64,000 nt of DNA from a virus. Below, piece by piece: positions 699-54,166 of the stretch. The DNA lies in IMG/VR virus record IMGVR_UViG_3300032116_000004, positions 1 to 64,000 of that record; one strand, 5' to 3'. The notes under the pieces were generated by a model, which did no database searches, was not told where the DNA came from, and was given only the letters and a program-made list of their open reading frames with translations. The stretch's first letter is position 1. The number at the start of each line of letters is the position of its first letter. The translations under genes and the position numbers were made by a program.

Positions 699-993
699 TC
701 TCGGCTGTGCAATTAAGGCACACGCTACGGAGATTACGCAGTTCAGAGTTGTTGAGATTACCATCTACATGATATACTAGAGTCTGAGACTGGACTTTGG
801 CGCGGAATCCACAGCGGTCACAGATCATTTTTTTCTTGTATCCTGCCTGTTTCCATCTGGGTTCTGTTGGTTTTTGCCGACGATCTTTCCTGATGCAGTT
901 GTCGCAACGACTACGATAGTAGATCTTATCGCCACGATAGCAATTCACGGCAGATGGTCGTTTGTTGCAGGCTTTGCACAGGGGTCTTGACAT
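646..993 (-). CDS. Small Cys-rich HNH-type endonuclease-like protein
   Basis: A 115-residue protein with CxxC pairs at C6/C9, C30/C33, C58/C61 and C92/C95, and an HVDGNLNN segment from H75. This H-x-D-x-N-x-x-N pattern between two CxxC pairs resembles phage HNH homing-type endonucleases with a zinc-stabilised core. It lies alone on the minus strand between dNMP kinase and the tail sheath gene, as free-standing endonuclease genes often do. A TTAAATA box ends five bases before its ATG and no Shine-Dalgarno is visible, so the message may be leaderless. A non-catalytic zinc-ribbon protein is the alternative. Confidence 0.72.
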   Translation of the reverse strand: MSRPLCKACNKRPSAVNCYRGDKIYYRSRCDNCIRKDRRQKPTEPRWKQAGYKKKMICDRCGFRAKVQSQTLVYHVDGNLNNSELRNLRSVCLNCTAEIMREDLPWRRGDLEEDR

Positions 994-998
994 GCAGA

Positions 999-1005
999 TA
1001 TTTAA
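999..1005 (-). promoter_or_regulatory. Late-promoter-like TTAAATA box, minus strand
   Basis: TTAAATA on the minus strand ends five bases before the ATG at 993. With the T4 late spacing (box at -13 to -6) transcription would start on the start codon itself. Inference from motif and position only. Confidence 0.5.
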
Positions 1006-1055
1006 GCAAAACCTTAGGTAAGGGCAAGGTTAGATGGTGGTTTTGGTGTGTGCCG

Positions 1056-1062
1056 CTAAATA
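1056..1062 (+). promoter_or_regulatory. Late-promoter-like CTAAATA box before tail sheath gene
   Basis: CTAAATA lies 28 bases upstream of the sheath ATG, followed by an AAAGGA ribosome binding site (about 1077-1082). This is the leadered class of late promoter in this genome. Confidence 0.6.
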
Positions 1063-1090
1063 TCAATAGCACTTTTAAAGGAACAGACAC

Positions 1091-4000
1091 ATGGCACTAC
1101 TTAGCCCAGGCGTAGAAGTTACGATCATAGATGAATCCAACTATCTACCAGCTCCTACAAATTCAGTACCATTTATCTTGATAGCCACAGCGCAAAACAA
1201 GATCAGTGGTAGCGGTGTTGGCGTGGCTGCCGGCACCACAGAGGTCAACGCAAATCGAGTTTATTTAATCTCTAGCCAAAGAGATTTGGTCAACACATTT
1301 GGTAACCCATTCTTCTACAAAACCACAGCAGGCACACCAATCAATGGTTATGAACTTAACGAATACGGTCTGCTCGCAGCCTATTCTGTTCTAGGCATTT
1401 CCAATCGTGCATACGTCCAGCGTGCCAACATTGACTTGAGCGAACTCACAGCCAGTTTGACACGCCCCACAGGTGCACCCAACAACGGTGACTATTGGTT
1501 AGATACATCGGCCACTGTCTGGGGTATTTCTGAGTGGAGTTTCACTACCAACACATTTACCAACAAGACACCCATAGTGATCACATCAGCAGATGACTTG
1601 ATAGATCCATTGGACACTACCACTGCTCCTTTGGACAGCATCGGTAACATCGGTGACTATGCTGTGGTAGCCGTGAATGCCAACAACTATACCTATTTCA
1701 AATCTCCAGGTAACACTGTCAGTGATCCAGTGGTTGCTGCCAATACCTGGGTGTTAGTGGGGTCAGATGATTGGAAAAACTCATGGCCCTCAGTGATAGG
1801 AACCCAAACCAATCCCACATTGACCAATGCACAAAGCATTTACCTCAATGATCAGTTGGTTACTATCGCTGGAACCACGGTCACTGCCATGGCCTCGGCA
1901 ATCAATGCAGCCAACGTTCCTGGCATCAGTGCCAAGAATGTCAGTGGCAAGTTGGAAATCTACATCGATTCCAACGGATCCAATGATGGATCCACTGATG
2001 ATGGCAACGGTATCCTTGACATAGCCAACGGCACAGGAACTCTGTTGACCGATCTAGGAATCACACCACGCATCTACTATGCACCTGTGCTACAACAGAG
2101 TCCAAACTACACAGTTCCACGCTGGAGGACCACTGACACTGAGCCACATCCAACTGGTTCGGTATGGAACAAGACCAATACAGTAAACCAAGGTGCGGAT
2201 CTCGCAGTGAAGAAATATGATTCCACATTGGGACTGTTTGTGCAACAGAGTTGTCCACTTTATGCCAACGATCAGAGCGCAAACAAGGCTCTAGATCCGG
2301 CTGGTGGTGGTCGCAACATCACAGCAGGTTCGACCTATGCTCAATATGATGTGGACGAAGACTTCACATTCACTATCAAGATCCTTGAGCGTCTGGCCAG
2401 CGGTAACACAATCATCATTGGTGACGACACATCACCAACATTTGTCAACGGCGAACAGTTCACTATCTCCTGGAGCGTGAAAAACAGTGATACACTGACC
2501 ACCGCGGTCACAGCCACGCTGGGCGGAACCACAGCGGCAGATTTTGTCACAGCATTTTTGGCCGCTATACCATCCGGTGCTCCAGTCACAGCAGGCGTGA
2601 CATCAGATGGCGCCATCCAGATACAGCACACCCAAGGTGGTAGCATCGTGCTTGAAGACACATCCGGCACACCCGTGGCAGATGCAGGTATCAATACATC
2701 AGTCACTGGAGTGCGAGCAGGTGTGAGCAATCAGTTGATCCTATCTAACTGGGTAGGTGCACCCACATTCACATACACTGCCAGCGACGTGGCACCTAGC
2801 CAAGATCCTGCTGATGGACGCTTGTGGTATTATTCTGCCACAGATCAAGTTGACATCATGATCAATAGTGGCAATGCCTGGGTTGGATATCGCACACTCA
2901 GCAATGATGTGCGCGGTTACAATTTGACACAGACAGATCCCGCTGGACCAATCATTTCTGTCACAGCACCCACTGTGCAAAGTGACGATACTCCACTGGT
3001 CTATGGTGATCTCTGGATCGACACCAGCGATCTTGAACTGTATCCAGTGATCAAGCGTTGGCAATCAGTAGACGGTGCAGATCAATGGGTATTGATCGAC
3101 AACACCGACCAGACCACCGAAAATGGTGTGCTGTTCGCTGACTTCCGTTGGGCTACCAACGGTGACACAGATCCTATCACTGCTCCAATTCCAACCATAA
3201 CCAGTTTGCTGGCCAGCTCGTATCTGGATCCAGATGCACCTGAGTATACATTGTATCCTGCAGGCATGTTGGCATTCAACCTGCGTCGTTCAGGATTCAA
3301 CGTCAAGAGCTTCCAGGTAGATTACTTCAATGCCACTGACTATCCTGATTTCACAGGCACAGTCACTGATGCATGGGTCACTGCCAGCGGATTGAAAAAC
3401 GATGGATCACCTTACATGGGTCGCAAAGCAGTGCGGAACATGGTGGTGCAGGCCATGAAATCATCGATAGATGGCAATCAAGATCTGCGCGAAGAACAAC
3501 GCCAGTTCAATTTGATCGCCACACCCAACTATCCAGAATTGATAGTGAATATGATAGCACTCAACAATGAGCGCAACAACACAGCGTTTGTAGTTGGTGA
3601 CACACCAATGCGCTTGCCTGACACAGCCGACGCTATCACTGCATGGGCGACCAATGCTGGTGGTGCTGGTTTAGACGGAGAAGATGGACTGGTCACAGCT
3701 GATGCGTATCTTGGCACGTTCTATCCATCATGCCAAACCACAGATTTGACTGGTGGCACAGTGGTGCAACCGCCCAGCCATATGATGTTGCGCACTATCC
3801 TGCGTAGCGACGAAGTTTCGTTCCCATGGTTGGCACCTGCCGGCACACGCCGCGGTGTGGTTGACAATGCGTTTTCGTTGGGATATGTCAATGCCCAGAC
3901 CGGACAGTTTATCTCAACAGCGATCCGTCAAAGCATACGTGATACCTTGTATGAAAACAAGATCAACCCGATCACGTTCATACCTGGCACGGGCATAACC

Positions 4001-4430: not shown

Positions 4431-4442
4431 GATCTCATCTCA

Positions 4443-4450
4443 GATAAATA
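4443..4450 (+). promoter_or_regulatory. Late-promoter-like GATAAATA box before tail tube gene
   Basis: GATAAATA directly after the sheath terminator, 27 bases before the tube ATG, with AAGGATTCAGGAG as ribosome binding region. Confidence 0.62.
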
Positions 4451-7160: not shown

Positions 7161-7167
7161 GTAAATA
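7161..7167 (+). promoter_or_regulatory. Late-like GTAAATA box in a short palindrome, before gp16
   Basis: GTAAATA lies inside the palindrome CGGTAAATACCG (7159-7170) and ends four bases before the gp16 ATG at 7172. No ribosome binding site is visible, so it either starts a leaderless message or the palindrome acts in another way. Confidence 0.45.
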
Positions 7168-7171: not shown

Positions 7172-7654
7172 ATGACGAGAAAATTAGAAGAACTGTTTGA
7201 TCTGCCTCGCAAAGAGGATGAATCCATAGACGATCAAACTCCCTCTGAACCTGCCCTGCCTGTATTGCCCGAAACTCTGGCCACTCTTGACAAGATCGAG
7301 CAAGCATTGCCCGCTGTGCGAGGCCTGGAAGCATCAGACGAAGAAATGGACGAATTGGCCGGCAAGGCACGAGAAAGTTTTGACGATCTCATGGATCTGG
7401 GCATGCAGGTAGACAGCCGCTATGCATCAGAGATATTTTCCGTGGCCAGCACCATGCTGGGTCACGCTATCACGGCCAAAACAGCCAAGATGAACAAAAA
7501 ACTCAAGATGATACAGTTACAGATGCAGAAAGCCAAACTGGATCGCGAGTCCAACGACGGAGACATACCCGTCACAGGCACAGGGCATGTGCTGGATCGC
7601 AACGAAATGCTGGAACGCCTTGTGCGCCGCGAACAACCAAAGAAGCCAGAATAG
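7172..7654 (+). CDS. Terminase small subunit (gp16)
   Basis: DNA-recognition and regulatory subunit of the packaging motor. At 160 residues it matches T4 gp16 (164) in length and layout: an acidic, proline-rich N-terminus, then a helical centre with SRYASEIFSVASTMLGHAI (about residues 82-100) and a lysine-rich coiled segment MNKKLKMIQLQMQKAKLD. Unlike T4, its partner gp17 is not the next gene but begins about 7.3 kb downstream. Confidence 0.85.
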   Translation: MTRKLEELFDLPRKEDESIDDQTPSEPALPVLPETLATLDKIEQALPAVRGLEASDEEMDELAGKARESFDDLMDLGMQVDSRYASEIFSVASTMLGHAITAKTAKMNKKLKMIQLQMQKAKLDRESNDGDIPVTGTGHVLDRNEMLERLVRREQPKKPE

Positions 7655-7655: not shown

Positions 7656-7662
7656 CTAAATA
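7656..7662 (+). promoter_or_regulatory. Late-promoter-like CTAAATA box
   Basis: CTAAATA 17 bases before the ATG at 7680, with a GGGGAT stretch as a possible weak ribosome binding site. Confidence 0.55.
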
Positions 7663-12308: not shown

Positions 12309-12315
12309 CTAAATA
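12309..12315 (+). promoter_or_regulatory. Late-promoter-like CTAAATA box, leaderless type
   Basis: CTAAATA ends seven bases before the ATG at 12323 and there is no Shine-Dalgarno. With T4 late spacing the message would have a leader of about two bases. Confidence 0.6.
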
Positions 12316-12322: not shown

Positions 12323-13945
12323 ATGGCCTATCCAAATCCAGCTAACGTAGCACCGTGGTATCTACGTAACATAACGCAGGCCCTGGAGCTGGACGAGGCC
12401 ACCGGCAACGTATTTGTCCGCACCAACGCTGTGCTAGTTGGCAATGTGTCAGTGGGCAATATAAGCATTGGCGCACTGGGTAATATCGATCTCACAGGCA
12501 ACACCATGCCCATATCGGGCAATGTCACTGTTTTCCAGGGCACCACACCTTGGGTGATCTCAGGCAACACCAATGTCGCTATAACGTCGGGCAATGTGGG
12601 CATAACCGGAAACATCGCGGGTATCACTGCCAACGTCACTGTGGTTGATGGTGGTGGAAGCATAACCATAGATGGCAATGTGGGCATCACTGGCACGGCC
12701 AATGTGGTGCTGGCTGATGACGCCAATGTAGTGATATCTGGGTTTGGCGGAGCCACTGCCGATGCGTTTGGGCGTCTGCGTGTGTCTGAACCTGTTAGCC
12801 TGTTTGAAACTCAGGCTCGCTACTACGATCATGGCCAGTTTGCTAACTCCATATCTGGCACTGGCAACGTGGTATATGTAGCCGCTCAGAGTTCCTATCA
12901 GCTCAACGTGGGCACAGCGTCGGGCGATTCAGTGCTGAGAGAAACGCTGAAGCCATTTCCTTACCAGCCTGGCAAGAGCCAACTCACACTGAACACATTT
13001 TGTTTTAACACACCAAAGACAAATCTCCGCCAGCGTGTGGGCTTGTTTGATGCCAACGACGGTGTGTATTTTGAAAACGATGGATCCTACAACTACATGG
13101 TCATACGTTCAGGATCCACTGGAGTGGAAGAGCGTATCAGACAAGATGCCTGGAATGTCGATCAACTCAATGGCACAGGACCTGTGACCAATCCGTCTGG
13201 TATCACGCTGTATCCTGATCGAACACAGATCTTTTTTGCTGATGTGGAGTGGCTGGGCGTGGGCTCAGTGCGTGTGGGCTTTGTCATCAACGGTGCGTAT
13301 ATTATCTGTCATTCATTTCCTCATGCCAATCAACCGGGCAACACCAAGGTCTACATGACCACGGCCACCTTGCCCATACGCTATGAAATAACCAACACTG
13401 GCGCTGTCGCCGGCACCAGCATGATGACACAGATCTGTAGCACAGTGATCTCTGAAGGTGGATTCCAACTGAGTGGATCAGGCAATCCCAGAGCCGCCAG
13501 TCATGCCATAGGCACTCCGGTTCGCTTGCCCAATGATCAGACTTTTAAACCCGTTATCGCTATCCGACTCAAGAGCACCAATCTCAATGCCGTGGTTATA
13601 CCCATAAACTACAGCCTGGTACCTGTGGCTGCCAGCATATTCCAGTTCCGAATCTATAAAAAAGCCATCACATCAGGTGGCTCATGGACGGATTCAGCTG
13701 TAGACAGTTCAGTGCAATACAACCTCGCTCCCACAGCCTTGGTGTCAGGCGACATCGCTGAACAGTCATTCATAAACTCAACCAACCAGAGCACAGGTTC
13801 TCCCACGCAAGAAACATTTACTTTTGAATATCAGCTGGAGCGAGAGCCTTTTACTGGCACACCATACGAGTATGTGATTACCATGGCCACCACCGGCACC
13901 AATCAAGACGTCTATGCCAGTGTGGAATGGCAAGAAATAACATAA
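12323..13945 (+). CDS. Fibre-like virion protein with N-terminal Gly-Asn repeats
   Basis: A 540-residue protein. Residues 35-135 contain about ten short GN-[VI] repeats (for example GNVSVGNISIG, SGNVGITGNI), predicting a thin repetitive shaft. The FGRLRVSEPVSLFETQ segment near residue 155 recurs in many phage fibre proteins and opens a large beta-rich domain running to the end. It lies between another fibre-like gene and a secreted nuclease. A fibre or tail-appendage role is inferred. Confidence 0.7.
   Translation: MAYPNPANVAPWYLRNITQALELDEATGNVFVRTNAVLVGNVSVGNISIGALGNIDLTGNTMPISGNVTVFQGTTPWVISGNTNVAITSGNVGITGNIAGITANVTVVDGGGSITIDGNVGITGTANVVLADDANVVISGFGGATADAFGRLRVSEPVSLFETQARYYDHGQFANSISGTGNVVYVAAQSSYQLNVGTASGDSVLRETLKPFPYQPGKSQLTLNTFCFNTPKTNLRQRVGLFDANDGVYFENDGSYNYMVIRSGSTGVEERIRQDAWNVDQLNGTGPVTNPSGITLYPDRTQIFFADVEWLGVGSVRVGFVINGAYIICHSFPHANQPGNTKVYMTTATLPIRYEITNTGAVAGTSMMTQICSTVISEGGFQLSGSGNPRAASHAIGTPVRLPNDQTFKPVIAIRLKSTNLNAVVIPINYSLVPVAASIFQFRIYKKAITSGGSWTDSAVDSSVQYNLAPTALVSGDIAEQSFINSTNQSTGSPTQETFTFEYQLEREPFTGTPYEYVITMATTGTNQDVYASVEWQEIT
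12425..12750 (+). repeat. In-gene degenerate repeat coding for Gly-Asn-Val/Ile units
   Basis: Recurring GGCAAT or GGCAAC codon pairs followed by GTC/GTG/ATA at irregular spacing of roughly 15-36 bases. They encode the repeated shaft of the fibre-like protein. The units are too degenerate and unevenly spaced for a CRISPR array. Confidence 0.7.
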
Positions 13946-13956: not shown

Positions 13957-14397
13957 ATGAAACTCTACGTTTTTTTAGCACTGCTCATAGCCATAGCAGT
14001 TCCAGCCTTGGCACAAAAAGCACCACAAGGCGTTACCTATGACGCACAAATACTAAGGGTCAGCGACGGCGACACTATTGTTATCAGTGCGCCGTTTCTT
14101 CCTCGACCGCTCAAGCCAGAACTTGCTGTCCGCATCTATGGTGTTGACACTCCAGAAAAAGGACACCGATCTCAGTGCCCCAGCGAAGCACAACGTGGTG
14201 AAGCTGCCAGTGCCTTTACCAAACAAGCAGTTGCATCAACACAAAAGCACCAAGTCACACTCTATGCCTGGGACAAGTTCGGTGGTCGTGTTCTGGGAGA
14301 TATCATACTGAATGGTGTGAGCCTACGTGCTGAATTGATTAAAAATGGATTCGCCAGAGAATACTACGGTGACGCCAAGCAGTCGTGGTGTCAGTAG
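13957..14397 (+). CDS. Secreted thermonuclease (staphylococcal nuclease-like)
   Basis: A 146-residue SNase-family protein. Residues 1-19 are a Sec signal peptide with an ALA cleavage site, followed by the nuclease fold: RVSDGDTIVI, VRIYGVDTPEKG and LNGVSLRAELIKNGFAREY. The start at 13957 is chosen because it begins the signal peptide directly and AAAGGA lies just upstream. It should degrade nucleic acid in the periplasm or outside the cell. The 3' end overlaps the opposing HNH gene by seven bases. Confidence 0.87.
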   Translation: MKLYVFLALLIAIAVPALAQKAPQGVTYDAQILRVSDGDTIVISAPFLPRPLKPELAVRIYGVDTPEKGHRSQCPSEAQRGEAASAFTKQAVASTQKHQVTLYAWDKFGGRVLGDIILNGVSLRAELIKNGFAREYYGDAKQSWCQ

Positions 14398-14927
14398 GTT
14401 CGTATCTGTTCTTCTTTGAGGCCCAGATACAGATGCCACGAAGGATGCCGCACCCCTCGATAAGTGCTCTTCACTGAATCTACCAACTTCCAGTAGTTAG
14501 GCTTGTAAGGAGTTTTGTTTGGCCTCCACACCTTGTTGCCTTTGTTGGAGTTGCAGGTCTTGCAACAGGTCACGCAGTTTTCCCAAGAAGTGATGCCACC
14601 TTGTGCTCTGGGCAACACATGGTCTATGGTTAGATGTCTTGCGCCCAAGGTGTCATTGCAATATTGGCAAGTAAACAGATCACGCAGATAGAGATTCTGG
14701 CGGCTGAAACGCATACCACCATTCTTACCAAATCCTTTCTTTGTGACAGCCACAGCAGGCACACGCATTTCCAATTTGGCACTGCGCACAGTCCAATCGT
14801 CATACCATTCTAGCACTTGGATCTTGTCCAAGAAGAACAGTTTGATAGCAGTCTGCCAATCTATGGTTGACAGCGGCAAGTAGTTTACTGGTTGATAGTC
14901 TGGTGCTAATACTAACGTGTCGCTCAT
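14391..14927 (-). CDS. HNH endonuclease
   Basis: A 178-residue protein with a classic HNH core at about residues 85-130: CQYC, LTIDHVLPRAQGG, WENCVTCCKTCNSNKG. The N-terminal 70 residues are those often seen in bacterial and phage HNH proteins that begin with VLAPDYQPVN. It is encoded on the minus strand directly beside the large terminase gene, in divergent orientation. HNH proteins next to terL often assist packaging, but a homing role is equally possible. An ATAAATA box ends five bases before its ATG. Confidence 0.92.
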   Translation of the reverse strand: MSDTLVLAPDYQPVNYLPLSTIDWQTAIKLFFLDKIQVLEWYDDWTVRSAKLEMRVPAVAVTKKGFGKNGGMRFSRQNLYLRDLFTCQYCNDTLGARHLTIDHVLPRAQGGITSWENCVTCCKTCNSNKGNKVWRPNKTPYKPNYWKLVDSVKSTYRGVRHPSWHLYLGLKEEQIRTY

Positions 14928-14932: not shown

Positions 14933-14939
14933 TATTTAT
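14933..14939 (-). promoter_or_regulatory. Late-promoter-like ATAAATA box, minus strand, leaderless type
   Basis: On the minus strand ATAAATA ends five bases before the HNH ATG at 14927; no ribosome binding site is visible. It lies in the 38-base gap between the divergent HNH and terminase genes. Confidence 0.5.
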
Positions 14940-14965
14940 CGGCGTATATTTTGGTAAGTAACAGT

Positions 14966-16531
14966 ATGTCCAAGAGTCTCGAAGGCGTCCTTATCAAGCA
15001 ACCGCATCGCAGGATGCCTTACACTGAACAGCAGGTCGATGAGTTCGTGAAATGTGCGGATCCTGAATCGGGTCCTACTTACTTCATGAGTCATTTTTTC
15101 TACATACAACATCCCTTGTATGGTAAGATGCTGTATCAGCCCTATGAATTCCAAGAACGCTTGATCGAGACCTATCACAATTATAGATTCTCTATATCCA
15201 TGATGCCTAGGCAAACGGGCAAATCTACTTCGGCAGCAGGCTATCTGCTGTGGTATGCCATGTTCGTTCCGGATTCGACCATCTTGGTGGCCGCCCACAA
15301 GTATCTGGGCGCACAGGAGATCATGCAACGTGTTCGTTATGCCTATGAAGCCTGTCCAGATCATATCAGGGCAGGGGTTGTGAGTTACAACAAAGGATCT
15401 ATAGAATTTGACAATGGATCACGTATCGTCAGCCAGACCACAACAGAAAACACCGGTCGTGGTATGTCAATAACCTTGCTCTACTGCGACGAGTTTGCGT
15501 TCGTGCGCCCGGGCATAGCCAAAGAGTTTTGGACTTCCATCACACCCACGCTGTCAACTGGTGGTAAAGCCATTGTTACGTCCACGCCCAATTCAGACGA
15601 AGATCAGTTTGCGCTGATCTGGAAACTGGCCAACAAACTGGAAGATGACTACGGCAATCCCACAGAAATAGGGCAGAATGGTTTCCGGGCTTTCCGTGCA
15701 TATTGGCGCGAACATCCTGACCGTGACGATGCCTGGGCTTCACAGCAAAAAGCCATACTGGGCGAAGAACGTTTCCGCCGAGAGATGGACTGCGAATTCA
15801 TCATCGACGACGAGACCTTGATCGCTCCTACTAAACTGATCGATCTTGTGGCCACTGAACCCATCTACAAGACTGGACAGGTGCGCTGGTTCAAACCCAT
15901 AAACAAAGAGCATATCTATGTAGTAGCCCTGGACCCTAGCCTGGGCACCGGGGGAGACCCGTCGGCCATCCAGGTGTTTGATGCCAACACCACAGAACAG
16001 GTAGCCGAATGGCGGCACAACCGGACCGACATTCCCAGCCAGGTTCGCATCTTGGCCGATGTGTGCAAACACATTAATGAAACACTGCGTGATTCCAAAA
16101 GCATCTATTTTACAGTGGAGAACAATACCATTGGCGAAGCTGCCTTGATATCCATAGCAGAATATGGCGAAGAAAACATCCAGGGCTATTTCCTCAGCGA
16201 TCCCAGCAGTGGCGGCGGACGCAGATATCGCAAAGGATTCAACACCACCAACAAGCCCAAACTGGCGGCCTGCGCCAAACTGAAAAATCTCATTGAAACT
16301 GGTAGGATGCGCATTAATTCTGCCAGCCTCATCACTGAACTCAAGAACTTCATAGCGCACGGTGCCAGTTACGCGGCCAAAGTAGGCGAAACCGATGATC
16401 TTGTCATGGCCACGCTGTTGGCTGTGCGCATGATGCAACTGCTCCAGAGTTATCATCAAGAACTGGACACACAACTGCGTGATCATTCGGATACCATCAT
16501 AGAACCCATGCCCTTCATAGCCGTGTTCTAA
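14966..16531 (+). CDS. Terminase large subunit (gp17)
   Basis: ATPase and nuclease of the DNA packaging motor. Walker A MPRQTGKST is at about residues 80-88, Walker B LLYCDEFAF near residue 175, and the C-terminal RNase H-like nuclease begins with VVALDPSLGTGGDPS near residue 317. At 521 residues it is shorter than T4 gp17 (610), as in aquatic T4-like phages. The ATG at 14966 is chosen over an upstream TTG. Its small subunit is about 7.3 kb upstream, separated by virion genes. Confidence 0.95.
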   Translation: MSKSLEGVLIKQPHRRMPYTEQQVDEFVKCADPESGPTYFMSHFFYIQHPLYGKMLYQPYEFQERLIETYHNYRFSISMMPRQTGKSTSAAGYLLWYAMFVPDSTILVAAHKYLGAQEIMQRVRYAYEACPDHIRAGVVSYNKGSIEFDNGSRIVSQTTTENTGRGMSITLLYCDEFAFVRPGIAKEFWTSITPTLSTGGKAIVTSTPNSDEDQFALIWKLANKLEDDYGNPTEIGQNGFRAFRAYWREHPDRDDAWASQQKAILGEERFRREMDCEFIIDDETLIAPTKLIDLVATEPIYKTGQVRWFKPINKEHIYVVALDPSLGTGGDPSAIQVFDANTTEQVAEWRHNRTDIPSQVRILADVCKHINETLRDSKSIYFTVENNTIGEAALISIAEYGEENIQGYFLSDPSSGGGRRYRKGFNTTNKPKLAACAKLKNLIETGRMRINSASLITELKNFIAHGASYAAKVGETDDLVMATLLAVRMMQLLQSYHQELDTQLRDHSDTIIEPMPFIAVF

Positions 16532-16537
16532 TAAATA
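16531..16537 (+). promoter_or_regulatory. Late-promoter-like ATAAATA box, leaderless type
   Basis: ATAAATA begins at the last base of the terminase stop codon and ends seven bases before the ATG at 16545. No Shine-Dalgarno is visible. Confidence 0.6.
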
Positions 16538-16544: not shown

Positions 16545-18056
16545 ATGAGCGATAAAAACACACCCGCACGCCAACTATATGACCTGCTCGTAGCGCAGGA
16601 TTTTGAACCCGAAGCCCTGGACAGCCAAGGCAAACCCGCCGCTGATCCTGCTGATGCAGACATCATCAGTTTTGACTATGCCACTCCTGAAAAGGACTAT
16701 GGCACTGTGGTAGTGGCCCTGGACGGTGAAAACAACCTGGACATGTATTTTGGAGACAACATGGCACGAGCCATGGAAGGCAATGATCGTGGCGACTGGT
16801 ATGATTTCCTGTATCTGGTTCGCATGTTCGCCAAACGCAATCTGCTCACGTTTAACGTAAAAAATCTCAGCAGACTCAAATACAACATGAAGACCATGGC
16901 TGCCGTCAAAGAAAGCCTGTTTGAAGGCTACTATGGCAACCGCAAGATTTCCTACTCAGATCAACCCAATCGCGCACGGCTTGTGATCAAACACAACAAA
17001 ACCTTGGGTGAAGGTGATGCACGTTTCCGCCATATCGAAAGCCTCTATGTAGAGAATGCCGAAGGTGAACGTTTCCGTGTGCCCAGCCGCAGCCTCACAC
17101 ATGGTCGCATGCTGGCACGACACGTGGCCGAAGGTGGCACACCCTACGATGCCTTTGGCATCCACATCACAGAGATCGTGGATGAGATGAAAACGCTCAG
17201 CAACTTCGTGCGTGCGGCACGGCATCGTGACTATACCGGTGAAGCCGCGCACATGGTAGAAGCTGCCATACGCCACTACGCTGATCTCAAAGCCAAGGCC
17301 AAGAAGATGATAGGTCGCAGAGGCTATCACGAAGAACGTGACAGTTTTGATCCTGCTGAGATCACAGAGATAGACGAAGCAGTGGAGACCATACGCGAAT
17401 TGTTCGTGAAACAGACTTTGGATCCTAGAGTAGAACAGGCCTTGCCTGTGCTGGCACGACTGCAAGAACAGGATCTCCCCGAAGCCGACGAATTTGAATC
17501 ATGGACTGACCGTGTGATGGAAGGCACCTGGGCCATACCAGAGACTCCTGAGCAGGTAAAAAAATTACAGATCTTGATGAGCAAAGATCTCATCGTGGGA
17601 CCTGATGCTTCCAATGCCACAGAACAACTGTATGACATCATTGGCGACGACGAACTGTTTGACATCTTGGAAGACATGGCCATGACCAACCCTGACGCCA
17701 ATGTGTGGGACGATCCTCGTGTGCAAAAAAGATTGGAACAGTTGGGCATACCAGGTATGGATGCCATAGACCTTGATGCAGTCAAAGAAGGACAGGTAAA
17801 AAGATTGGCCATGGGCGACATCTCTGCAGAACCAGATGCTCAAGGACCCTATGATGTGATACGCAGGCGTGATGGTATCGAATCCGGCCTACATCAATAT
17901 GGCAATCGTGAGCAGGCCCGGAAACACGCACAGAATCTCAAGAACAAATACCCCAGCATGGAAGTGGGCATCAGACCCGCTGGTCAACGAACCGAATATA
18001 TAGGCATCAAAGAAAGCCAAGGGCTAGATAGATTATTGAATCTAGCTCGGTCATGA
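16545..18056 (+). CDS. Large virion-type protein, function unknown
   Basis: A 503-residue acidic, mostly helical protein of a type present near terminase genes in aquatic T4-like phages. An internal KESLFEGYYGN (near residue 125) holds an L-F-E|G site fitting the prohead-protease rule. Residues 220-330 are strongly helical. The C-terminal segment resembles a small domain (YDVIRRRDGIESGLHQYGNRE...). It overlaps the next gene by four bases. Head-associated role is inferred; no enzyme motif seen. Confidence 0.65.
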   Translation: MSDKNTPARQLYDLLVAQDFEPEALDSQGKPAADPADADIISFDYATPEKDYGTVVVALDGENNLDMYFGDNMARAMEGNDRGDWYDFLYLVRMFAKRNLLTFNVKNLSRLKYNMKTMAAVKESLFEGYYGNRKISYSDQPNRARLVIKHNKTLGEGDARFRHIESLYVENAEGERFRVPSRSLTHGRMLARHVAEGGTPYDAFGIHITEIVDEMKTLSNFVRAARHRDYTGEAAHMVEAAIRHYADLKAKAKKMIGRRGYHEERDSFDPAEITEIDEAVETIRELFVKQTLDPRVEQALPVLARLQEQDLPEADEFESWTDRVMEGTWAIPETPEQVKKLQILMSKDLIVGPDASNATEQLYDIIGDDELFDILEDMAMTNPDANVWDDPRVQKRLEQLGIPGMDAIDLDAVKEGQVKRLAMGDISAEPDAQGPYDVIRRRDGIESGLHQYGNREQARKHAQNLKNKYPSMEVGIRPAGQRTEYIGIKESQGLDRLLNLARS

Positions 18057-18616
18057 ACGCTGTCCGGATCAATCAGCAACTGTGGACGGCCAAAGATTTC
18101 TTTGAACCCGATCAATGGCGATCGATCAAACTGGCATATAGACGATCTCGCGTGCCATTTTCCATGCAGTATGACGACCGTTTGCTCACACCATGGTCAG
18201 ACACTCCCGAATTACAACAGATAGTAGAAGCCAACACTGAACGTGTGAGCCAACTGGTCGGCCGGCCTCTGGCACCGCAAGTGGCCTATGTCAGCATCGA
18301 TCTAGCCGGCAGTTCCATAATGATGCACAGGCTACATCCTGACATCTTGGTGCAGGTGCAGATTGGCATGGGCGAAGAATCCGACTGCCGTATGGCATTC
18401 TGTTTCTGTCATGACAGCCAGGTCAATGCGGAAAGCGAACTAGACTATCAGCCTATGCGCCGGCTCACTAGACACGATGTTGATGTGGTCAATTATGAAC
18501 CCAATCTAGCCAGCATCTATGTCAATGAACCTCGTGGATTCTGTGGCATGCTGTCCTGCGTGCCGGGCAACACAGTGAGAGAAGTGCTGGTATTGAGTTA
18601 TACCAAATTGTATTGA
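18053..18616 (+). CDS. Degenerate 2OG-Fe(II) oxygenase-fold protein
   Basis: A 187-residue protein that lines up with the opposing gene at 18598-19158. HPD in MMHRLHPDILVQVQ corresponds to the HxD iron ligands (HSD) there, and VPGNTVREVLVLSYTKLY corresponds to LPGIGTRASVTFQYNLV. The distal iron-binding His before this segment is absent (GFCGML), while the Arg is kept. Either iron binding is lost or an alternative ligand is used. It is translationally coupled to the preceding virion-type gene. Confidence 0.5.
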   Translation: MNAVRINQQLWTAKDFFEPDQWRSIKLAYRRSRVPFSMQYDDRLLTPWSDTPELQQIVEANTERVSQLVGRPLAPQVAYVSIDLAGSSIMMHRLHPDILVQVQIGMGEESDCRMAFCFCHDSQVNAESELDYQPMRRLTRHDVDVVNYEPNLASIYVNEPRGFCGMLSCVPGNTVREVLVLSYTKLY

Positions 18617-19158
18617 AATGTCACGCTGGCACGTGTGCCGATTCCAGGCAATACCCTATGAGGTTTGAGATCGGTATTGACATTGATATAACCTTTGTTA
18701 TTGGCCAACTCTAACTTGTATGGCGGATCCACATGCAAGAATTCGATACCGTGACAGGGATCCTGTTTTGAAGACCAAATGTCAACATAGACTTGATAGG
18801 TAACTATGATGTCTGGTGAATCTGAATGTGTCTGGCAGGCAAAGCCCGGCAAGTCTAGCCAAAATTTCACTATCATGAGATTGAGATCCAATCCAGAGAT
18901 CTGATTCAATGAAGGTATGATATCCAACCCTATCTGTTGTAATCGGGCATGATCCGGGCCCGGTTGCAACATCAGTCTGCGATGGGGTCGTGAAACTGCG
19001 AATTGATTTTGTTCGTTTATCACAATGTCCTGCATCCATGACAATGTTTCGGAGCAAAAACACTCATCCACAAGCCAACAGTTCGGTGCCACTGATTGCA
19101 ATTGACAGACTTGATCATATATCTTGACTTGTTGTGTAGATGTGTTATACTGTGTCAT
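18598..19158 (-). CDS. Putative 2OG-Fe(II) oxygenase
   Basis: A 186-residue protein with a double-stranded beta-helix pattern: HSD (HxD) in QTHSDSPDIIVTYQVYVD, and a distal H...R in KPHRVLPGIGTRASVTF. These fit the H-x-D...H...R facial triad and 2OG-binding Arg of the superfamily. The ATG at 19158 is preferred over an upstream TTG because GTAAATA ends exactly seven bases before it, as at other genes here. Substrate unknown; it converges on its degenerate relative with a 19-base overlap. Confidence 0.65.
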   Translation of the reverse strand: MTQYNTSTQQVKIYDQVCQLQSVAPNCWLVDECFCSETLSWMQDIVINEQNQFAVSRPHRRLMLQPGPDHARLQQIGLDIIPSLNQISGLDLNLMIVKFWLDLPGFACQTHSDSPDIIVTYQVYVDIWSSKQDPCHGIEFLHVDPPYKLELANNKGYINVNTDLKPHRVLPGIGTRASVTFQYNLV

Positions 19159-19165: not shown

Positions 19166-19172
19166 TATTTAC
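19166..19172 (-). promoter_or_regulatory. Late-promoter-like GTAAATA box, minus strand, leaderless type
   Basis: On the minus strand GTAAATA ends seven bases before the ATG at 19158. No Shine-Dalgarno. Confidence 0.55.
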
Positions 19173-25143: not shown

Positions 25144-25151
25144 GATAAATA
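25144..25151 (+). promoter_or_regulatory. Late-promoter-like GATAAATA box inside the island
   Basis: GATAAATA lies 15 bases before the ATG at 25167, with GGAGG (25158-25162) between. It marks a new transcription unit within the accessory island. Confidence 0.58.
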
Positions 25152-32013: not shown

Positions 32014-32798
32014 TTGCGATCATAATCATCGGGTAGGCTATGTCCCAAGGCCTTGCGTTTAGAGCCTTTCATGTGATCCATGTATAGGCCCAAGCGACTG
32101 GCGATAAAAGGATGCCCTGGGCCTTTGCCCGGCAGTTCGGGACTGAGATTGTGGAAAGAGGTCTGTCGTTGCGTCTGGAAGTCTTTGCGGATCACGTCAA
32201 ATACAAAACTGTCATGATATTCGCGCAGGCGGAAAAGATCTCCTGTGACATAAAGATCATGCCAACGGTCCATGAAACTGAGCAAATCGGGATGGCGCCG
32301 ATTATAGGCCACCCATCCGCATTCGCTGTGATATTTTTCCCTGCGTCCCAGATAACAGGCCATTGCTGAATCTTCGCATATGGTGCTCAAGAAATTTTCC
32401 GGAACGTCCTGGAAAGTCACTGTGTCTGCATCTAACCATATCACCCAGTCGCTGTCTAGAGTGCGGCAAGCATGGATCACAGCAAAGACCTTGTGGCTGA
32501 ATCTCACTGCATCCCACTTGAAAGCATTGTCTTTGAACGGTACTCCGGTGTCTTTGGCCACCAACCCATTGGCCATGGGATCGTTGCCCCAGCGATTTTT
32601 GAAATTTACCAAATCTGGTGACTGTGCCAACAGATCCAGGATCTTCACACGATCGCTGGGCGATCTGGGCTGGCAATTTTCTGCATATACTATCAGTTCC
32701 ACATCTCCGGGCCAATGGCGATCAAAAGCGTCGATCATGCGCTGGCCATATTGTTTGAGACCCGGGGCATGGAACGTGGTAATTACTGTGTATTTCAT
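31959..32798 (-). CDS. Glycosyltransferase-like protein (DxD type), minus strand
   Basis: A 279-residue GT-A-like protein: YTVITTFHAPGLKQYGQRMIDAF at the N-terminus and WVIWLDADTVTFQDVP (DAD) near residue 105. It is the only gene of the island on the minus strand. The ATG at 32798 is chosen because CTAAATA ends exactly seven bases before it, matching other leaderless-type starts; a longer form would run into the divergent neighbour's start. Similar in form to the gene at 26548. Confidence 0.72.
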   Translation of the reverse strand: MKYTVITTFHAPGLKQYGQRMIDAFDRHWPGDVELIVYAENCQPRSPSDRVKILDLLAQSPDLVNFKNRWGNDPMANGLVAKDTGVPFKDNAFKWDAVRFSHKVFAVIHACRTLDSDWVIWLDADTVTFQDVPENFLSTICEDSAMACYLGRREKYHSECGWVAYNRRHPDLLSFMDRWHDLYVTGDLFRLREYHDSFVFDVIRKDFQTQRQTSFHNLSPELPGKGPGHPFIASRLGLYMDHMKGSKRKALGHSLPDDYDRNQGLNSSVGYWQGIFGRR

Positions 32799-32805: not shown

Positions 32806-32812
32806 TATTTAG
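32806..32812 (-). promoter_or_regulatory. Late-promoter-like CTAAATA box, minus strand, leaderless type
   Basis: On the minus strand CTAAATA ends seven bases before the ATG at 32798. It overlaps the first base of the divergent GTG start at 32812. Confidence 0.58.
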
Positions 32813-36273: not shown

Positions 36274-36280
36274 CTAAGTA
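36274..36280 (+). promoter_or_regulatory. Variant late box CTAAGTA, leaderless type
   Basis: CTAAGTA, one mismatch from CTAAATA, ends five bases before the ATG at 36286, immediately after a terminator. No ribosome binding site is visible. Weak on motif, supported by position. Confidence 0.38.
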
Positions 36281-36285: not shown

Positions 36286-37458
36286 ATGGGCAAAGACAAC
36301 AAAATATTTTGCACGGCACCATTTACTACTTTACGAATAGAATCTTATAGTGCCTCAATACCTGGCAAATATGATCAGTATGGAGTGATTTTCAAACCGG
36401 GATGTGTGTATGATCCACAGGGTCCTATATCCAGTCTTGACGAATATCTTCAAGGGCAGGAAATGTCCTGGCACAGAAATAACTTGTTGCAAGGATTGCA
36501 ACCACATCCTGGTTGTCATAGATGTTGGAAATCTGAACAAATTGGTCTAGACAGCACTAGAAAACAGTTGTTGAAAAAACCCTATGCCAGTGACCAGATG
36601 GGTATCAAATTGTTAGATGTTTTTTTTGGCAATGTGTGTAACATGGCCTGTTTTATGTGTGATCCTGAATGGTCCAGCAAACATGCCGAAGAAAGTTACC
36701 AATTGGGATTCATAAAGCAAAGAATCGATGTAAAAGACAACACAGACACAGTGTTGGAAACTATAGATCTGCTACCTGATCTCGAGCAGGTCAGTTTCAT
36801 AGGCGGGGAATTTTTCTTATTCAAAAACAACGTCAAAATTTGCAACAAGATCATTGAAAAAAATCTCGAAGCCAGGATCGTAACCAATGCCAGCGTATTG
36901 ACTGATGAACTTTGGAAAAAGCTTACAGAGATCAAAGCAATTGAAATGCAAATCAGCATAGATGCTATAGAAGAAACCTATGCTCTTATGCGTTACCCTT
37001 ACACCTGGGATACCTTGATCGGCAATTACCAAAAACTGAAACAACTATCAAACATCAAACTCAATTTTCATGTGGTCACACAGGTGCTTAATATTCAAAA
37101 TCTGCATGCCACTTTGGACTGGGCCAATCGAGAACGCACACCAATTTCTTTGCACAATCTATCGCCCGGATGCTGGTCTTGGGACATACTTACCGTTTCT
37201 GAAAAAATCGAACTGAAACAGTATCTACAGGATTGCAATCAAAGATTTAGATTGATATCCAAGCAGACGCAGTGGATACAAGATCTGATTGATGGGTTAG
37301 ACAAGGTTAAATTCAGTCCGCAATGGCGGCAACAGTTTGTGGATAGATTTTCCAAACTTATGAAACATAGGAAAGTTGATATACCGCAAATCCAAAAACA
37401 TTTGGGTATTTTCCGTAGCCTGTTTGACGAGGTCCTAACGGCAATGGATGCACATTAA
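36286..37458 (+). CDS. Radical SAM protein (twitch-type), second copy
   Basis: A 390-residue radical SAM enzyme with CNMACFMC (C-x3-C-x2-C, near residue 116) and an IGGEFFLF (GGE) motif. N-terminal Cys occur in the same order as in the copy at 21652: FCTAPF, PGCVYD and GCHRCWKSEQ, the last aligning with SCGYCREIEQ. The gene is clearly AT-richer than its neighbours, suggesting recent transfer. It lies alone between a terminator and the uvsW promoter. Substrate unknown. Confidence 0.85.
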   Translation: MGKDNKIFCTAPFTTLRIESYSASIPGKYDQYGVIFKPGCVYDPQGPISSLDEYLQGQEMSWHRNNLLQGLQPHPGCHRCWKSEQIGLDSTRKQLLKKPYASDQMGIKLLDVFFGNVCNMACFMCDPEWSSKHAEESYQLGFIKQRIDVKDNTDTVLETIDLLPDLEQVSFIGGEFFLFKNNVKICNKIIEKNLEARIVTNASVLTDELWKKLTEIKAIEMQISIDAIEETYALMRYPYTWDTLIGNYQKLKQLSNIKLNFHVVTQVLNIQNLHATLDWANRERTPISLHNLSPGCWSWDILTVSEKIELKQYLQDCNQRFRLISKQTQWIQDLIDGLDKVKFSPQWRQQFVDRFSKLMKHRKVDIPQIQKHLGIFRSLFDEVLTAMDAH

Positions 37459-41767: not shown

Positions 41768-42115
41768 TTTGCGTTTGGATTTTTTGCGGGCTATGTCGGT
41801 GAGGCTGGTGCATGGTCCATGCACTATTTCCAGATCTTTGTTGGTAAATGTCCTGAGATAAGGGCGGAATACTTCCCAATCTTGCTTGAGGAATATATTG
41901 ATAGGTATGCTACGATTGCTTTCCCACCACCAAGTATTGGCCAATTCTAAGAACAGTTTCTTGAGATCTGCGTGGGGAATATTGCCAAAATCATAGATGG
42001 TGGTCACAGCATCATCGCGGTTCTGTATCACACCGATGTATTCATTGCCAGCATAGGTGCAAAATGTTATGAAAGGGTAGCGTTCGGCTATTTTAGCGAA
42101 GATTTCAGAGCCCAT
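41738..42115 (-). CDS. Conserved small T4-like protein, function unknown
   Basis: A 125-residue protein: YPFITFCTYAGNEYIGVIQN, ANTWWWESNRSIPINIFL and a basic C-terminus (ARKKSKRKSITLVRR). The triple-Trp WWWESNR segment makes it easy to recognise in related phages, but no function is known to me. It lies alone on the minus strand and overlaps the mini-DnaE gene end by 30 bases. No late box in its orientation was found. Confidence 0.68.
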   Translation of the reverse strand: MGSEIFAKIAERYPFITFCTYAGNEYIGVIQNRDDAVTTIYDFGNIPHADLKKLFLELANTWWWESNRSIPINIFLKQDWEVFRPYLRTFTNKDLEIVHGPCTSLTDIARKKSKRKSITLVRRID

Positions 42116-42120
42116 AAATA
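42114..42120 (+). promoter_or_regulatory. Late-promoter-like ATAAATA box
   Basis: ATAAATA 16 bases before the ATG at 42137, with TTAGGA as ribosome binding site. It overlaps the start codon of the divergent minus-strand gene. Confidence 0.58.
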
Positions 42121-49503: not shown

Positions 49504-50556
49504 TTACCACTCCGTTATATAATAGATGCCGCTGTCCCCGCGCTCAGGCCAATAATCCTCCCGGCCCCCTGATCGATGTATATCACTACAAACGCAGTGT
49601 ATTCCGGCATCCCAAAAATATCTAGATTGAAATTCTACCAAATGCGGAGTGATACCTAGAGATTCAAAATATTGAAAAGCCATTTCATCGTAAGCGCCAC
49701 ATATGATATTTTTTTCGTCTACTACCAACATATTGACTTCAAAAACAGTTTCTTGCGGATTGCCTAACCATTGTTCTGCCACGGCCATTATATCTGCGTT
49801 GAAATGCCCGTAGTCTACTCCGGGTAGATACCACTTGTCGGCTATACCAACGTGTTGGAGATTTTTATATGTGGTGTCTGGCAGATGGAACACAGACCAT
49901 CCTGGAAAACTTGAGTCATAGACCTTTCTATAATGAGACGTAAAAATATGCCCTGGCCTAATCGGACAAAAAACTCCGTCGTTATGATCTCCAGTGCCAC
50001 TGAGATGCACTCTATAATCTTTGGCTAATTCCTGTGCTACCAGATACGTGTATTTTTTTGATTCTGGTATATTTGGCTGATAATCTATCAGTATATCTTT
50101 TCCGGCCCGCACCACGCTGGCAAAAATCATCCAGGCCCATGGTTCTGGTGTAGCACGGTCAATGACATGTATTTTTTGTCCTGCTTGGCGATAATCATCT
50201 ACAGCACGTTGATAGGGATTTACTTCGGACGTGTATTGAGGCATGAGATGCAAAGTATCTCCTAGTGTCAGTGCTATGTCGCATGGACTTACCGGTGGTT
50301 TAAGCAAATGATCATGTTCGTCTAAAAAGTCGTCTATACGATCGAATTGAGGCCTGACTACTGTGACACCTAATTTTTCCAATGTGTCTGTTAGATTGTC
50401 AAAATCTTTGTTGGTAATTTCAGTGATTTTTGCAAAAATATCGTGGGATTTGTTGCCAAGATGCTGGTAAAAATCTGCAGGATAAGTGCCACCTACCCAT
50501 ACTTCTTTCAATGGTTGCCATTGGCTGTGACTTGAAACTTTACGTTGACTTATCAT
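49504..50556 (-). CDS. Amidinotransferase-family protein
   Basis: A 350-residue protein of the arginine:glycine amidinotransferase/arginine deiminase fold. Segments include LKEVWVGG near the N-terminus, SPCDIALTLGDTL (substrate-side Asp), SGTGDHNDGVFCPI (His/Asp) and the C-terminal DAGIHCVCSDIHRSGG, where HC-x3-D-x2-R supplies the catalytic Cys. It could transfer an amidino group from arginine to an amine, perhaps one made by the downstream aminotransferase. The GTAAATA box ends seven bases before the ATG. Confidence 0.82.
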   Translation of the reverse strand: MISQRKVSSHSQWQPLKEVWVGGTYPADFYQHLGNKSHDIFAKITEITNKDFDNLTDTLEKLGVTVVRPQFDRIDDFLDEHDHLLKPPVSPCDIALTLGDTLHLMPQYTSEVNPYQRAVDDYRQAGQKIHVIDRATPEPWAWMIFASVVRAGKDILIDYQPNIPESKKYTYLVAQELAKDYRVHLSGTGDHNDGVFCPIRPGHIFTSHYRKVYDSSFPGWSVFHLPDTTYKNLQHVGIADKWYLPGVDYGHFNADIMAVAEQWLGNPQETVFEVNMLVVDEKNIICGAYDEMAFQYFESLGITPHLVEFQSRYFWDAGIHCVCSDIHRSGGREDYWPERGDSGIYYITEW

Positions 50557-50563
50557 ATAAGGA

Positions 50564-50570
50564 TATTTAC
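50564..50570 (-). promoter_or_regulatory. Late-promoter-like GTAAATA box, minus strand, leaderless type
   Basis: On the minus strand GTAAATA ends seven bases before the ATG at 50556. No Shine-Dalgarno. Drives the minus-strand trio. Confidence 0.58.
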
Positions 50571-50586
50571 AGATACGTAAAATCTA

Positions 50587-50593
50587 CTAAATA
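50587..50593 (+). promoter_or_regulatory. Late-promoter-like CTAAATA box, plus strand
   Basis: CTAAATA 17 bases before the ATG at 50611, followed by an AAAGG site. It is back to back with the minus-strand box at 50564. Confidence 0.58.
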
Positions 50594-50610
50594 ATTTAAA
50601 GGTTCGGATC

Positions 50611-53400: not shown

Positions 53401-53424
53401 TAGCCCCCGATTTCACCATTTCGG

Positions 53425-53432
53425 TATAAATA
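53425..53432 (+). promoter_or_regulatory. Consensus T4-type late promoter TATAAATA
   Basis: Perfect TATAAATA 39 bases before the ATG at 53472, with an AGGAG ribosome binding site (about 53460). The strongest late box in the window; it serves a single small gene closed by a perfect terminator. Confidence 0.82.
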
Positions 53433-53471
53433 AAAGTAGGCCCGCTAAGGCCACTTATTAGGAGATTTAAA

Positions 53472-53855
53472 ATGGCACAATTTACACGCACCAATGGTGA
53501 TTCGCAACCAGTATTCGCGCTAGACACACAGAATGGTCCAGTCGCACCTTCCACTTCGTTGGCCGGTGTTCCTGTCCAGCCTCAAGGTCCAAAACTTGAC
53601 TTCTTCCGTGCAGTTGCTAACAACAGCATCAACGGCGAAGGCGGTGTAGCAGAATACGTTGCAAACGTGATCCAGGCTATCCAGCAAACATCCACAGTTG
53701 CTATGTATCAAGTTGACGGCGTAGCATTGTCAGTGGCTGTATATCCTACAGGCGCATTCGCAAACGCTGCCGCTTTCTTGTCAGCAGCCAACATCACCTA
53801 CACAGGTTTCCAGTTAGACTCAGCCACAAACGCTGGTTTCAAACTCACAACCTAA
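53472..53855 (+). CDS. Small abundant virion-type protein
   Basis: A 127-residue protein starting AQFTRTNGDSQPVFALDTQNG, with PQGPKLDFFRA and a helix VAEYVANVIQAIQQTSTVAMYQ. Similar short proteins are common in aquatic T4-like phages. A consensus late promoter, good ribosome binding site and strong terminator around this single gene predict high late expression, as for a capsid decoration or head-surface protein. Role inferred from context. Confidence 0.72.
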   Translation: MAQFTRTNGDSQPVFALDTQNGPVAPSTSLAGVPVQPQGPKLDFFRAVANNSINGEGGVAEYVANVIQAIQQTSTVAMYQVDGVALSVAVYPTGAFANAAAFLSAANITYTGFQLDSATNAGFKLTT

Positions 53856-53876
53856 TCTGTAGTTTTGGTATAGAAG

Positions 53877-53906
53877 AAACCCTAGTTCTTTAACTAGGGT
53901 TTTTTT
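53877..53906 (+). terminator. Rho-independent terminator
   Basis: Eleven-bp perfect stem (53877-53887 with 53892-53902), CTTT loop, T run 53900-53906. Confidence 0.95.
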
Positions 53907-53911
53907 GTGGC

Positions 53912-53918
53912 TTAAATA
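53912..53918 (+). promoter_or_regulatory. Late-promoter-like TTAAATA box, leaderless type
   Basis: TTAAATA ends five bases before the ATG at 53924, directly after a terminator. With T4 late spacing transcription starts on the A of ATG. No Shine-Dalgarno. Confidence 0.58.
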
Positions 53919-53923
53919 CCCGC

Positions 53924-54166
53924 ATGGCAGATCAACGATACGTATATGAAAGTCCTGATGGTGGACACACTATCTATCGCAGGCATCCTGGCAAACTGGA
54001 TAGAGAATTGGTATCCATCGATCAGGAAACCCAGGACAAACTGGCTGCCTTGAAAGAAGACAAACTGTGGGGCGATATACGGCGCAGAGCCCAGCAAGAT
54101 CCTGCCCTACAGCAGATGTTGGATCAACTACGGATCTACTACAGTCTCAAGTATGCAAAAGATTGA
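53924..54166 (+). CDS. Small protein, function unknown
   Basis: An 80-residue protein: a short beta start (YVYESPDGGHTIYRRHPG) and a helical, charged end (LAALKEDKLWGDIRRRAQQDPALQQMLDQLRIYY). It opens a late unit after a terminator and overlaps the next gene by 14 bases. No family recognised. Confidence 0.65.
   Translation: MADQRYVYESPDGGHTIYRRHPGKLDRELVSIDQETQDKLAALKEDKLWGDIRRRAQQDPALQQMLDQLRIYYSLKYAKD

Follow-up and report, generated by a model that had tools for sequence, protein, structure and literature searches.

Putative late promoter boxes adjoining start codons suggest leaderless late mRNAs in a T4-superfamily jumbo phage

Late transcription in bacteriophage T4 is a classic model, and the annotated late genes of this phage have space for a leader. 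The T4 late box lies at -13 to -6, and a CTAAATA late motif has been described for Aeromonas phage Aeh1 (PMC1524935). In the T4 genes e, soc, 49 and I-TevI, the late promoter is reported to lie inside an RNA hairpin that blocks the translation of early transcripts (PMC2988022, PMC3014915). Leaderless transcripts have been reported elsewhere: most middle and late mRNAs of Thermus phage phiYS40 are described as leaderless in a review (PMC3594737), phage transcripts are described as often leaderless in a paper on phage AR9 (PMC5312081), and in leaderless genes of Deinococcus-Thermus a -10 motif is said to adjoin the open reading frame (PMC12340547). Here, a 64,000-base stretch of phage DNA (the window; bases 1-64000 of the 315,778-base virus record IMGVR_UViG_3300032116_000004) is analysed, in which the hexamer TAAATA ends only a few bases before the start codon of a set of genes. 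The arrangement is best read, with a probability of about 85%, as a late promoter of the gp55 type fused to the start codon and giving rise to leaderless late mRNAs in a jumbo phage of the T4 superfamily. We infer the promoter role of the box in vivo, the exact start point of transcription and translation from a 5'-terminal AUG.

According to this reading, TAAATA, or in a minority of cases TAAGTA, would be the late box read by a gp55-type sigma factor with the host RNA polymerase, and transcription would start about 5-6 bases past the box. A start codon at least 15 bases from the box would allow a leader that carries a Shine-Dalgarno (SD) site, and a start codon 4-8 bases from the box would give an RNA whose 5' end is at the AUG or at most about 3 bases from it. 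The gap, counted as the number of bases from the end of the box to the ATG of an open frame of at least 60 amino acids (aa), thus defines the two designs. The following genes of the window have a close box and are predicted to be leaderless:

TAAATA 999..1004 (-), gap 5, before gene 646..993 (-), with a weak HNH endonuclease match (E 0.0009)
TAAATA 7162..7167 (+), gap 4, with a GCGG/CCGC inverted repeat around the box, before gene 7172..7654 (+), phrog_16202, unknown function
TAAATA 12310..12315 (+), gap 7, before gene 12323..13945 (+), virion structural protein (phrog_1645)
TAAATA 14933..14938 (-), gap 5, half of a head-to-head pair, before gene 14391..14927 (-), HNH endonuclease
TAAGTA 14955..14960 (+), gap 5, the other half of this pair, before gene 14966..16531 (+), large terminase
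TAAATA 16532..16537 (+), gap 7, before gene 16545..18056 (+), virion structural protein
TAAATA 19166..19171 (-), gap 7, before gene 18598..19158 (-), no PHROG match
TAAATA 32806..32811 (-), gap 7, before gene 31959..32798 (-), no PHROG match, many viral relatives
TAAGTA 36275..36280 (+), gap 5, before gene 36286..37458 (+), radical SAM
TAAATA 50564..50569 (-), gap 7, before gene 49504..50556 (-), phrog_25854, unknown function
TAAATA 53913..53918 (+), gap 5, before gene 53924..54166 (+), no PHROG match

An earlier, sequence-only reading of the window had listed ten close-box genes, all of which could be confirmed (gap 4, 5 or 7), and the five to which it ascribed exactly seven bases (12323, 16545, 19158(-), 32798(-) and 50556(-)) do have this gap. 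The large terminase (ATG 14966, TAAGTA, gap 5) is a member of the close class that was absent from its list.

The frequency of the pattern was compared with that of 12 permutations of the letters of TAAATA, the overlapping shifted forms AAATAT and ATAAAT being excluded. Within the window, 9 of 33 TAAATA hexamers lie at gap 4-8, against 7 of 299 permuted hexamers (Fisher p = 2e-6). There is no excess at gap 9-14 (1/33 against 17/299), and at gap 15-30 the counts are 10/33 and 25/299. Twenty of the 33 hexamers have an ATG frame of at least 60 aa not more than 28 bases downstream, nine of them at gap 4-7, one at 10 and ten at 15-28. The picture is repeated in a held-out stretch of 120 kb (record bases 64001-184000) that lay outside what the sequence-only reading covered: TAAATA is found at gap 4-8 in 8 of 47 cases, against 10 of 557 for permuted hexamers (p = 2e-5), at gap 9-14 in 2/47 and at gap 15-30 in 15/47. 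The rest of the record contains 10 places with the close-box pattern, a frame of at least 45 aa being opened at 9 and of at least 60 aa at 7 of them. The variant TAAGTA is enriched too, and other single-base variants are weak. Two gap classes with no excess at 9-14 between them would be expected from a fixed start point 5-6 bases past a T4-type late box, since a leader must be either absent or long enough to hold a ribosome-binding site. A programme like that of phiYS40, with most middle and late transcripts leaderless, is not what these counts show, the close boxes (9 of 33 in the window, 8 of 47 in the held-out stretch) being accompanied by 10 and 15 distant ones, respectively.

The two classes differ in their potential for ribosome binding. 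Over 184 kb of the record, the median SD pairing was -1.5 kcal/mol for genes with a box at gap 4-8 (n = 17) and -6.1 kcal/mol for those with a box at gap 12-35 (n = 26; p = 7e-7), the median of all genes of at least 100 aa lying between them (-3.5 kcal/mol, n = 188). Pairing of -4.5 kcal/mol or stronger was found in 1 of 17 close-box genes and in 73% of 26 distant-box genes. In 20 loci of relatives (18 of 38 loci were left out as near-copies), the medians were 0.6 kcal/mol (n = 49) and -3.8 kcal/mol (n = 45; p = 1e-8), and the same level was reached by 0/49 close-box and 33% of 45 distant-box genes. The absence of SD sites from the close class, which the sequence-only reading had claimed, is thus borne out for most members: 16 of the 17 close-box genes of the phage itself, and all 49 of those in the relatives, lie above -4.5 kcal/mol. 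The close class also starts with AUG, as leaderless genes do: of the ATGs at gap 4-8, 17/24 own ones and 49/57 in relatives start a frame of at least 60 aa, in comparison with 3/9 and 2/15 for GTG and 0/4 and 2/25 for TTG.

The boxes are similar to TATAAATA: the core is TAAATA, A is the commonest base just before it, and the outer T of T4 is dispensable. From the T4 box position it follows that +1 is the sixth base after the box; gap 5 would therefore put the +1 of T4 geometry on the A of the AUG, and gap 7 would leave two bases before it. The leadered promoters prefer A at the predicted +1 (67/132, background 39%, p = 0.004, uncorrected for the positions examined); in T4 itself A occupies this position in 11 of 22 promoters, which is not significant (p = 0.29).

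The distant-box genes of the window, in which the same box leaves room for a leader, are the following:

late box 1057..1062 (+), gap 28, before the tail sheath gene 1091
late box 4445..4450 (+), gap 27, before gene 4478
late box 7657..7662 (+), gap 17, before gene 7680
late box 25146..25151 (+), gap 15, before gene 25167
late box 42115..42120 (+), gap 16, before gene 42137
late box 50588..50593 (+), gap 17, before gene 50611
late box 53427..53432 (+), gap 39 (counted by eye), before gene 53472
late box 54590..54595 (+), gap 21, before gene 54617
late box 55296..55301 (+), gap 23, before gene 55325
late box 56667..56672 (+), gap 28, before gene 56701, an addition to the genes listed earlier
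late box 58120..58125 (+), gap 17, before gene 58143

The ten distant genes named by the sequence-only reading are real, with 15-28 bases between box and ATG in nine and 39 in 53472. Its wording, that the box is 15 or more bases upstream of an AGGA-type site, holds for the start codon and not for the AGGA, which lies only 5-6 bases past the box at 25167 and 42137 (by eye). Its further claim, that nearly all isolated minus-strand genes have a close box, is true of the window, where 5 of 6 minus-strand units do (in the authors' reading, with doubtful frames excluded), and fails over 184 kb, where only 4 of 24 minus-strand first genes do, all four inside the window; the latter count rests on a crude greedy gene call that included doubtful frames and missed 32798. 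A preference for divergent neighbours over all genes was borderline (7/48 against 10/180, p = 0.057).

The relatives examined comprise 118 loci (1.06 Mb) retrieved by the terminase or other window genes, with near-copies of the window kept and only identical 60-base start regions merged in the pooled counts. TAAATA has 195 distinct starts at gap 4-8, 7 at gap 9-14 and 58 at gap 15-30, numbers that are not independent of one another; at gap 4-8 the count is 9-32 for other hexamers, 27 for TAAGTA, and 83 and 52 for ATAAAT and AAATAT, which are shifted forms of the box. Of the 239 distinct close starts of both box forms, most belong to a few families: the 16545 family accounts for 87, the terminase for 47, radical SAM genes for 29 and HNH genes for 10. 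In 14 related records (own included), the pattern occurs 313 times at gap 4-8 against 105 for the reversed pattern, and 90 against 115 at gap 9-13; the addition of four further contigs gives 360 against 142 in 18 records at gap 4-8, with excess by raw counts in G004 (5 against 2) and G005 (9 against 2). The gap is also kept in diverged orthologues. It is 7 in near-copies of gene 50556 and 8, 8, 8 and 6 in relatives of 74, 72, 70 and 66% identity, and the gap of 7 of gene 19158 is kept in a 67% relative. Thus, both comparisons suggested by the sequence-only reading, a genome scan for chance gaps (run here with permuted hexamers at gap 4-8) and a survey of box-to-ATG distance across related phages, came out in its favour: TAAATA is clearly above chance in the window and the held-out stretch, and the excess at gap 4-8 recurs in the 118 loci. 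Its two spacing classes therefore stand, with one box serving both, no excess at gap 9-14 and the pattern recurring in diverged relatives.

Of 89 distinct upstream regions of the terminase, 46 have a box at gap 4-8, 2 at gap 12 or more and 1 at gap 0, and the other 40 show no box within 45 bases (118 loci were entered; L116 lacked an ATG, and the others that were not counted were duplicates, gave no hit or extended too little upstream). The phage of L026/L040 was scored as distant in this count because of the choice of ATG, and has gap 5 in the tree analysis. The terminase tree (FastTree, local support) contains 96 proteins, frames of less than 400 aa and identical proteins being excluded and Atu_ph07 and S-SRM01 being absent; a close box (gap 4-8) was found in 48 of the 96, 33 of them at exactly gap 5. 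The five isolates in the tree fall outside a clade of 91 and have no close box, and the deepest branches inside the clade do have it; the close-box state of the terminase is therefore probably ancestral to this uncultured clade, with later losses and regains.

There are 15 distinct head-to-head pairs with a close box for each gene and 26-43 bases between the two start codons; 10 of them are located upstream of the terminase, and the pair of the window (14927/14966) is spaced by 38 bases. In the tightest pair (L084 2974-3001), the start codons are 26 bases apart, with TAAATA and TAAGTA facing opposite ways. The minus-strand start at 32798 lies 13 bases from the probable GTG, at 32812, of a divergent plus-strand gene. 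Of 52 regions counted for relatives of 32798 (from 80 loci, eight of them without an ATG), 34 have a box at gap 4-8, 10 have none, 3 have one at gap 12 or more and 5 at gap 9-11.

Inverted repeats accompany some of the boxes. In five homologues of 12323 (L024, L025, L030, L035 and L042), inspection by eye places the box in the left arm of an inverted repeat that immediately precedes the ATG; this resembles the arrangement of T4 gene e or an intrinsic terminator. In the radical SAM family of 36286, 8 of 18 gap-4 members have a full 4-bp stem around the box (shuffles, mean 2.9); the box forms the loop, the stem ends at the ATG, and the arms vary yet stay complementary (e.g. L026 12045, L086 1136, L094 697 and L135 1132). 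Such a repeat around gap-4 boxes is unsupported in the 7172 family (1/3) and is not general. The window contains two radical SAM genes, 21649-22902 and 36286-37458, with PHROG matches in common. A peptide deformylase gene with a close box at gap 5 occurs at record position 150004 (+) and in L013 (6004-6450). The HNH matches at 993 (weak) and 14927 raised the possibility that the class consists of homing endonucleases alone; this was rejected, as the large families of close-box genes are those of structural, packaging and radical SAM proteins.

The proteins of the record that point to the T4 superfamily are the tail sheath, large terminase, gp32-like single-stranded DNA-binding protein, UvsX, DnaB-type helicase, primase and NrdA. 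A 20-kb stretch gave no near DNA match among 50,697 phage records, and the window yielded no tRNA. Among isolates, the terminase is best matched, at 52% identity, by that of Pseudomonas jumbo phage PA5oct and related phages; next come Sinorhizobium phage Phosso, Agrobacterium phage Atu_ph07, Vibrio phage 2.275.O and the GAP32/121Q groups. The sigma factor expected of a T4-type late promoter is present, since a gp55-family protein was matched by profile at record 297075-297380 (E 2.5e-23), and also in 10 of 10 other records tested. The record (G000) further encodes ribosomal protein bS21 (73440-73595, +), preceded by an AAGGAGG site and a TAAATA box; the gene was also found in L237 and L009, in 7 of 10 related records (own included) and in PA5oct. 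As PA5oct has bS21 without an excess of close boxes, bS21 alone does not explain the design. In a published group of bS21 phages, the gene is reported to be encoded on the reverse strand, in the same region as the large terminase (PMC9723584), a placement unlike that found here. A search for IF3, a possible clue to leaderless translation, gave no hit in this record or in nine related ones.

In eight isolates (T4, PA5oct, Phosso, Atu_ph07, Vibrio phage 2.275.O, GAP32, 121Q and S-SRM01), the close pattern occurred 207 times on both strands against 310 for the control, and none of them was singly in excess. Of the 225 TAAATA in T4, five precede an ATG frame of at least 50 aa by 4-8 bases (5 bases in three cases, 8 in two), and every one of these frames falls inside an annotated gene. 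The gene that follows the terminase, 16545 in the window, has homologues in Phosso, Vibrio phage 2.275.O, GAP32 and 121Q (E 2e-9 or lower when compared with the window protein); its counterpart in Atu_ph07 was found by profile only (E 3e-4), and that in PA5oct, which is not significant, was placed by position. These six counterparts have the same box at gap 14-30, with a clear SD site in four (by eye). Thus, a leadered late promoter of the 16545 family appears, from this comparison of sequences, to have been shortened to a leaderless one in the clade.

Several observations weigh against a late promoter fused to the start codon, or against its generality. Profile searches found neither gp33 nor gp45 in the record; for gp45 this is not evidence of absence, since the clamp profile phrog_223, which finds the proteins of T4 and S-SRM01, also misses those of the jumbo isolates PA5oct, Phosso, Atu_ph07, GAP32 and 121Q, as well as three related records. 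Gap 4 would misfit the exact T4 start point, the predicted +1 falling one base inside the AUG, so that a start one base earlier would be needed. The pairing data are not uniform either: one own close-box gene does reach -4.5 kcal/mol, the close-box terminase of L152 (gap 4) has strong SD-like pairing (-8.0), and the leadered class of the relatives pairs modestly, a third of it at that level. The close starts in relatives repeat a few gene families and include near-copies of the window. Within the clade, 43 of 91 terminases have no box at gap 4-8, and the close-box state changes at least 17 times on the tree, at least 12 changes being forced by well-supported branches. The close box of 12323 is kept in near-copies only; its other relatives have SD-like leaders, a box inside an inverted repeat, or neither. 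The recurrence of the 32798 box is partly confounded, since the box overlaps the AGGA of the divergent gene with the probable start at 32812 and the spacer of its SD site. Finally, the design may extend beyond the clade, as the forward strand of S-SRM01 has 21 close patterns against 13 in the control (reverse strand, 5 against 13), and it is not strictly confined to it, as PA5oct EST35_0222 (PA5oct 144985; L058 36119), an annotated structural gene supported by mass spectrometry, has TAAATA at gap 5. The latter gene, belonging to a cultured phage, is a possible test case outside the clade.

The same data bear on other explanations of the close boxes. They might be real promoters while translation proceeds mainly from longer transcripts started upstream, the leaderless RNA being minor. 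The finding that 10 of 17 close-box genes are co-directional with the preceding gene (by the crude gene call) is in line with this; the upstream RNAs would, however, carry little SD pairing at these genes, and some members have a divergent start codon only 13-43 bases away, which makes this explanation unlikely. It is less likely still that the close TAAATA is an A/U-rich translation signal, e.g. a site for ribosomal protein S1, which replaces the SD site in a leadered mRNA. The box does occupy the SD position in genes without SD pairing, but such a signal would hardly account for the preference for one hexamer in the pooled loci (195 close starts against 9-32 for unrelated hexamers) or for the weakness of its single-base variants other than TAAGTA. 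The same hexamer, which is the T4 late consensus, recurs 15-30 bases upstream in the other class, and the 26-43 bases between the start codons of head-to-head pairs leave little room for another promoter.

A very improbable case is that of misassigned ATGs, with translation from a downstream codon that has an SD site and a short leader inside the predicted frame. The start codons are indeed predicted, and the N-termini of the terminase vary among more distant relatives; against this, homology of the terminase begins at residue 1 in relatives of at least 84% identity and in PA5oct and Phosso, and alignment from residue 1 was found for 50556 in 8 of 10 loci and for 19158 in 5 of 5, near-copies included. 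Chance, i.e. the accidental nearness of an AT-rich hexamer to start codons, might be suggested by contigs G002 and G003, the raw counts of which show no excess (26 against 25 and 7 against 8) and which also weigh against the promoter reading itself. It was rejected by means of the permuted hexamers, the reversed patterns and the held-out sequence, and the enrichment in relatives and the gap kept in diverged orthologues leave it next to no probability.

If the late promoter is indeed fused to the start codon, it probably acts as a gate for translation. RNA that reads through from upstream would carry the AUG without a ribosome-binding site and would be translated poorly, so that efficient synthesis of the gated proteins would depend on their own late transcript and be confined to late time. 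The position of the promoter itself would thus be a translation switch, even for the gene of the packaging motor, and it would become clear why 26-43 bases suffice for two divergent late genes. A more far-reaching and rather doubtful possibility is that the clade has split its late programme into SD-led and strictly leaderless classes by sliding one promoter, with the start point of the sigma factor picking the start codon, read-through being silent, and the phage bS21 perhaps tuning host ribosomes between the classes. The prediction of the start point is testable to one base with 5'-end data, and the gap offers a simple sequence rule for the correction of start codons in many uncultured phage genomes.

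The sequence-only reading considered a phage-wide leaderless class of late genes to be new. No report of leaderless T4-type late genes was found in the open-licence literature, which misses most subscription papers; leaderless middle and late mRNAs as such had already been reported for phiYS40 in the review cited above (PMC3594737). That phage, as described there, belongs to another phage group and infects a host phylum rich in leaderless genes, whereas here the leadered and leaderless designs share one late box. The leaderless genes reported for Deinococcus-Thermus (PMC12340547) are similar in that a promoter element stands just a few bases ahead of the start codon and a ribosome-binding site is lacking, and differ in that a host sigma factor and a cellular genome are involved instead of a phage late box. 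There is also a likeness to the late promoters of T4 and Aeh1, with the same core box, a gp55-family sigma factor in the record, and structural and packaging genes downstream; it is limited by the position of the T4 frames at gap 4-8, all inside annotated genes, and by gp33 and gp45 being undetected in this record. As in T4 e, soc, 49 and I-TevI, the late promoter would decide which RNA is translatable, and some relatives described here carry the box in an inverted repeat before the ATG. In T4, however, the late mRNAs of the endonuclease and of gene e, as these sources present them, keep a ribosome-binding site (PMC2988022, PMC3014915), while those of the close-box genes are predicted to begin at the AUG or a few bases before it.

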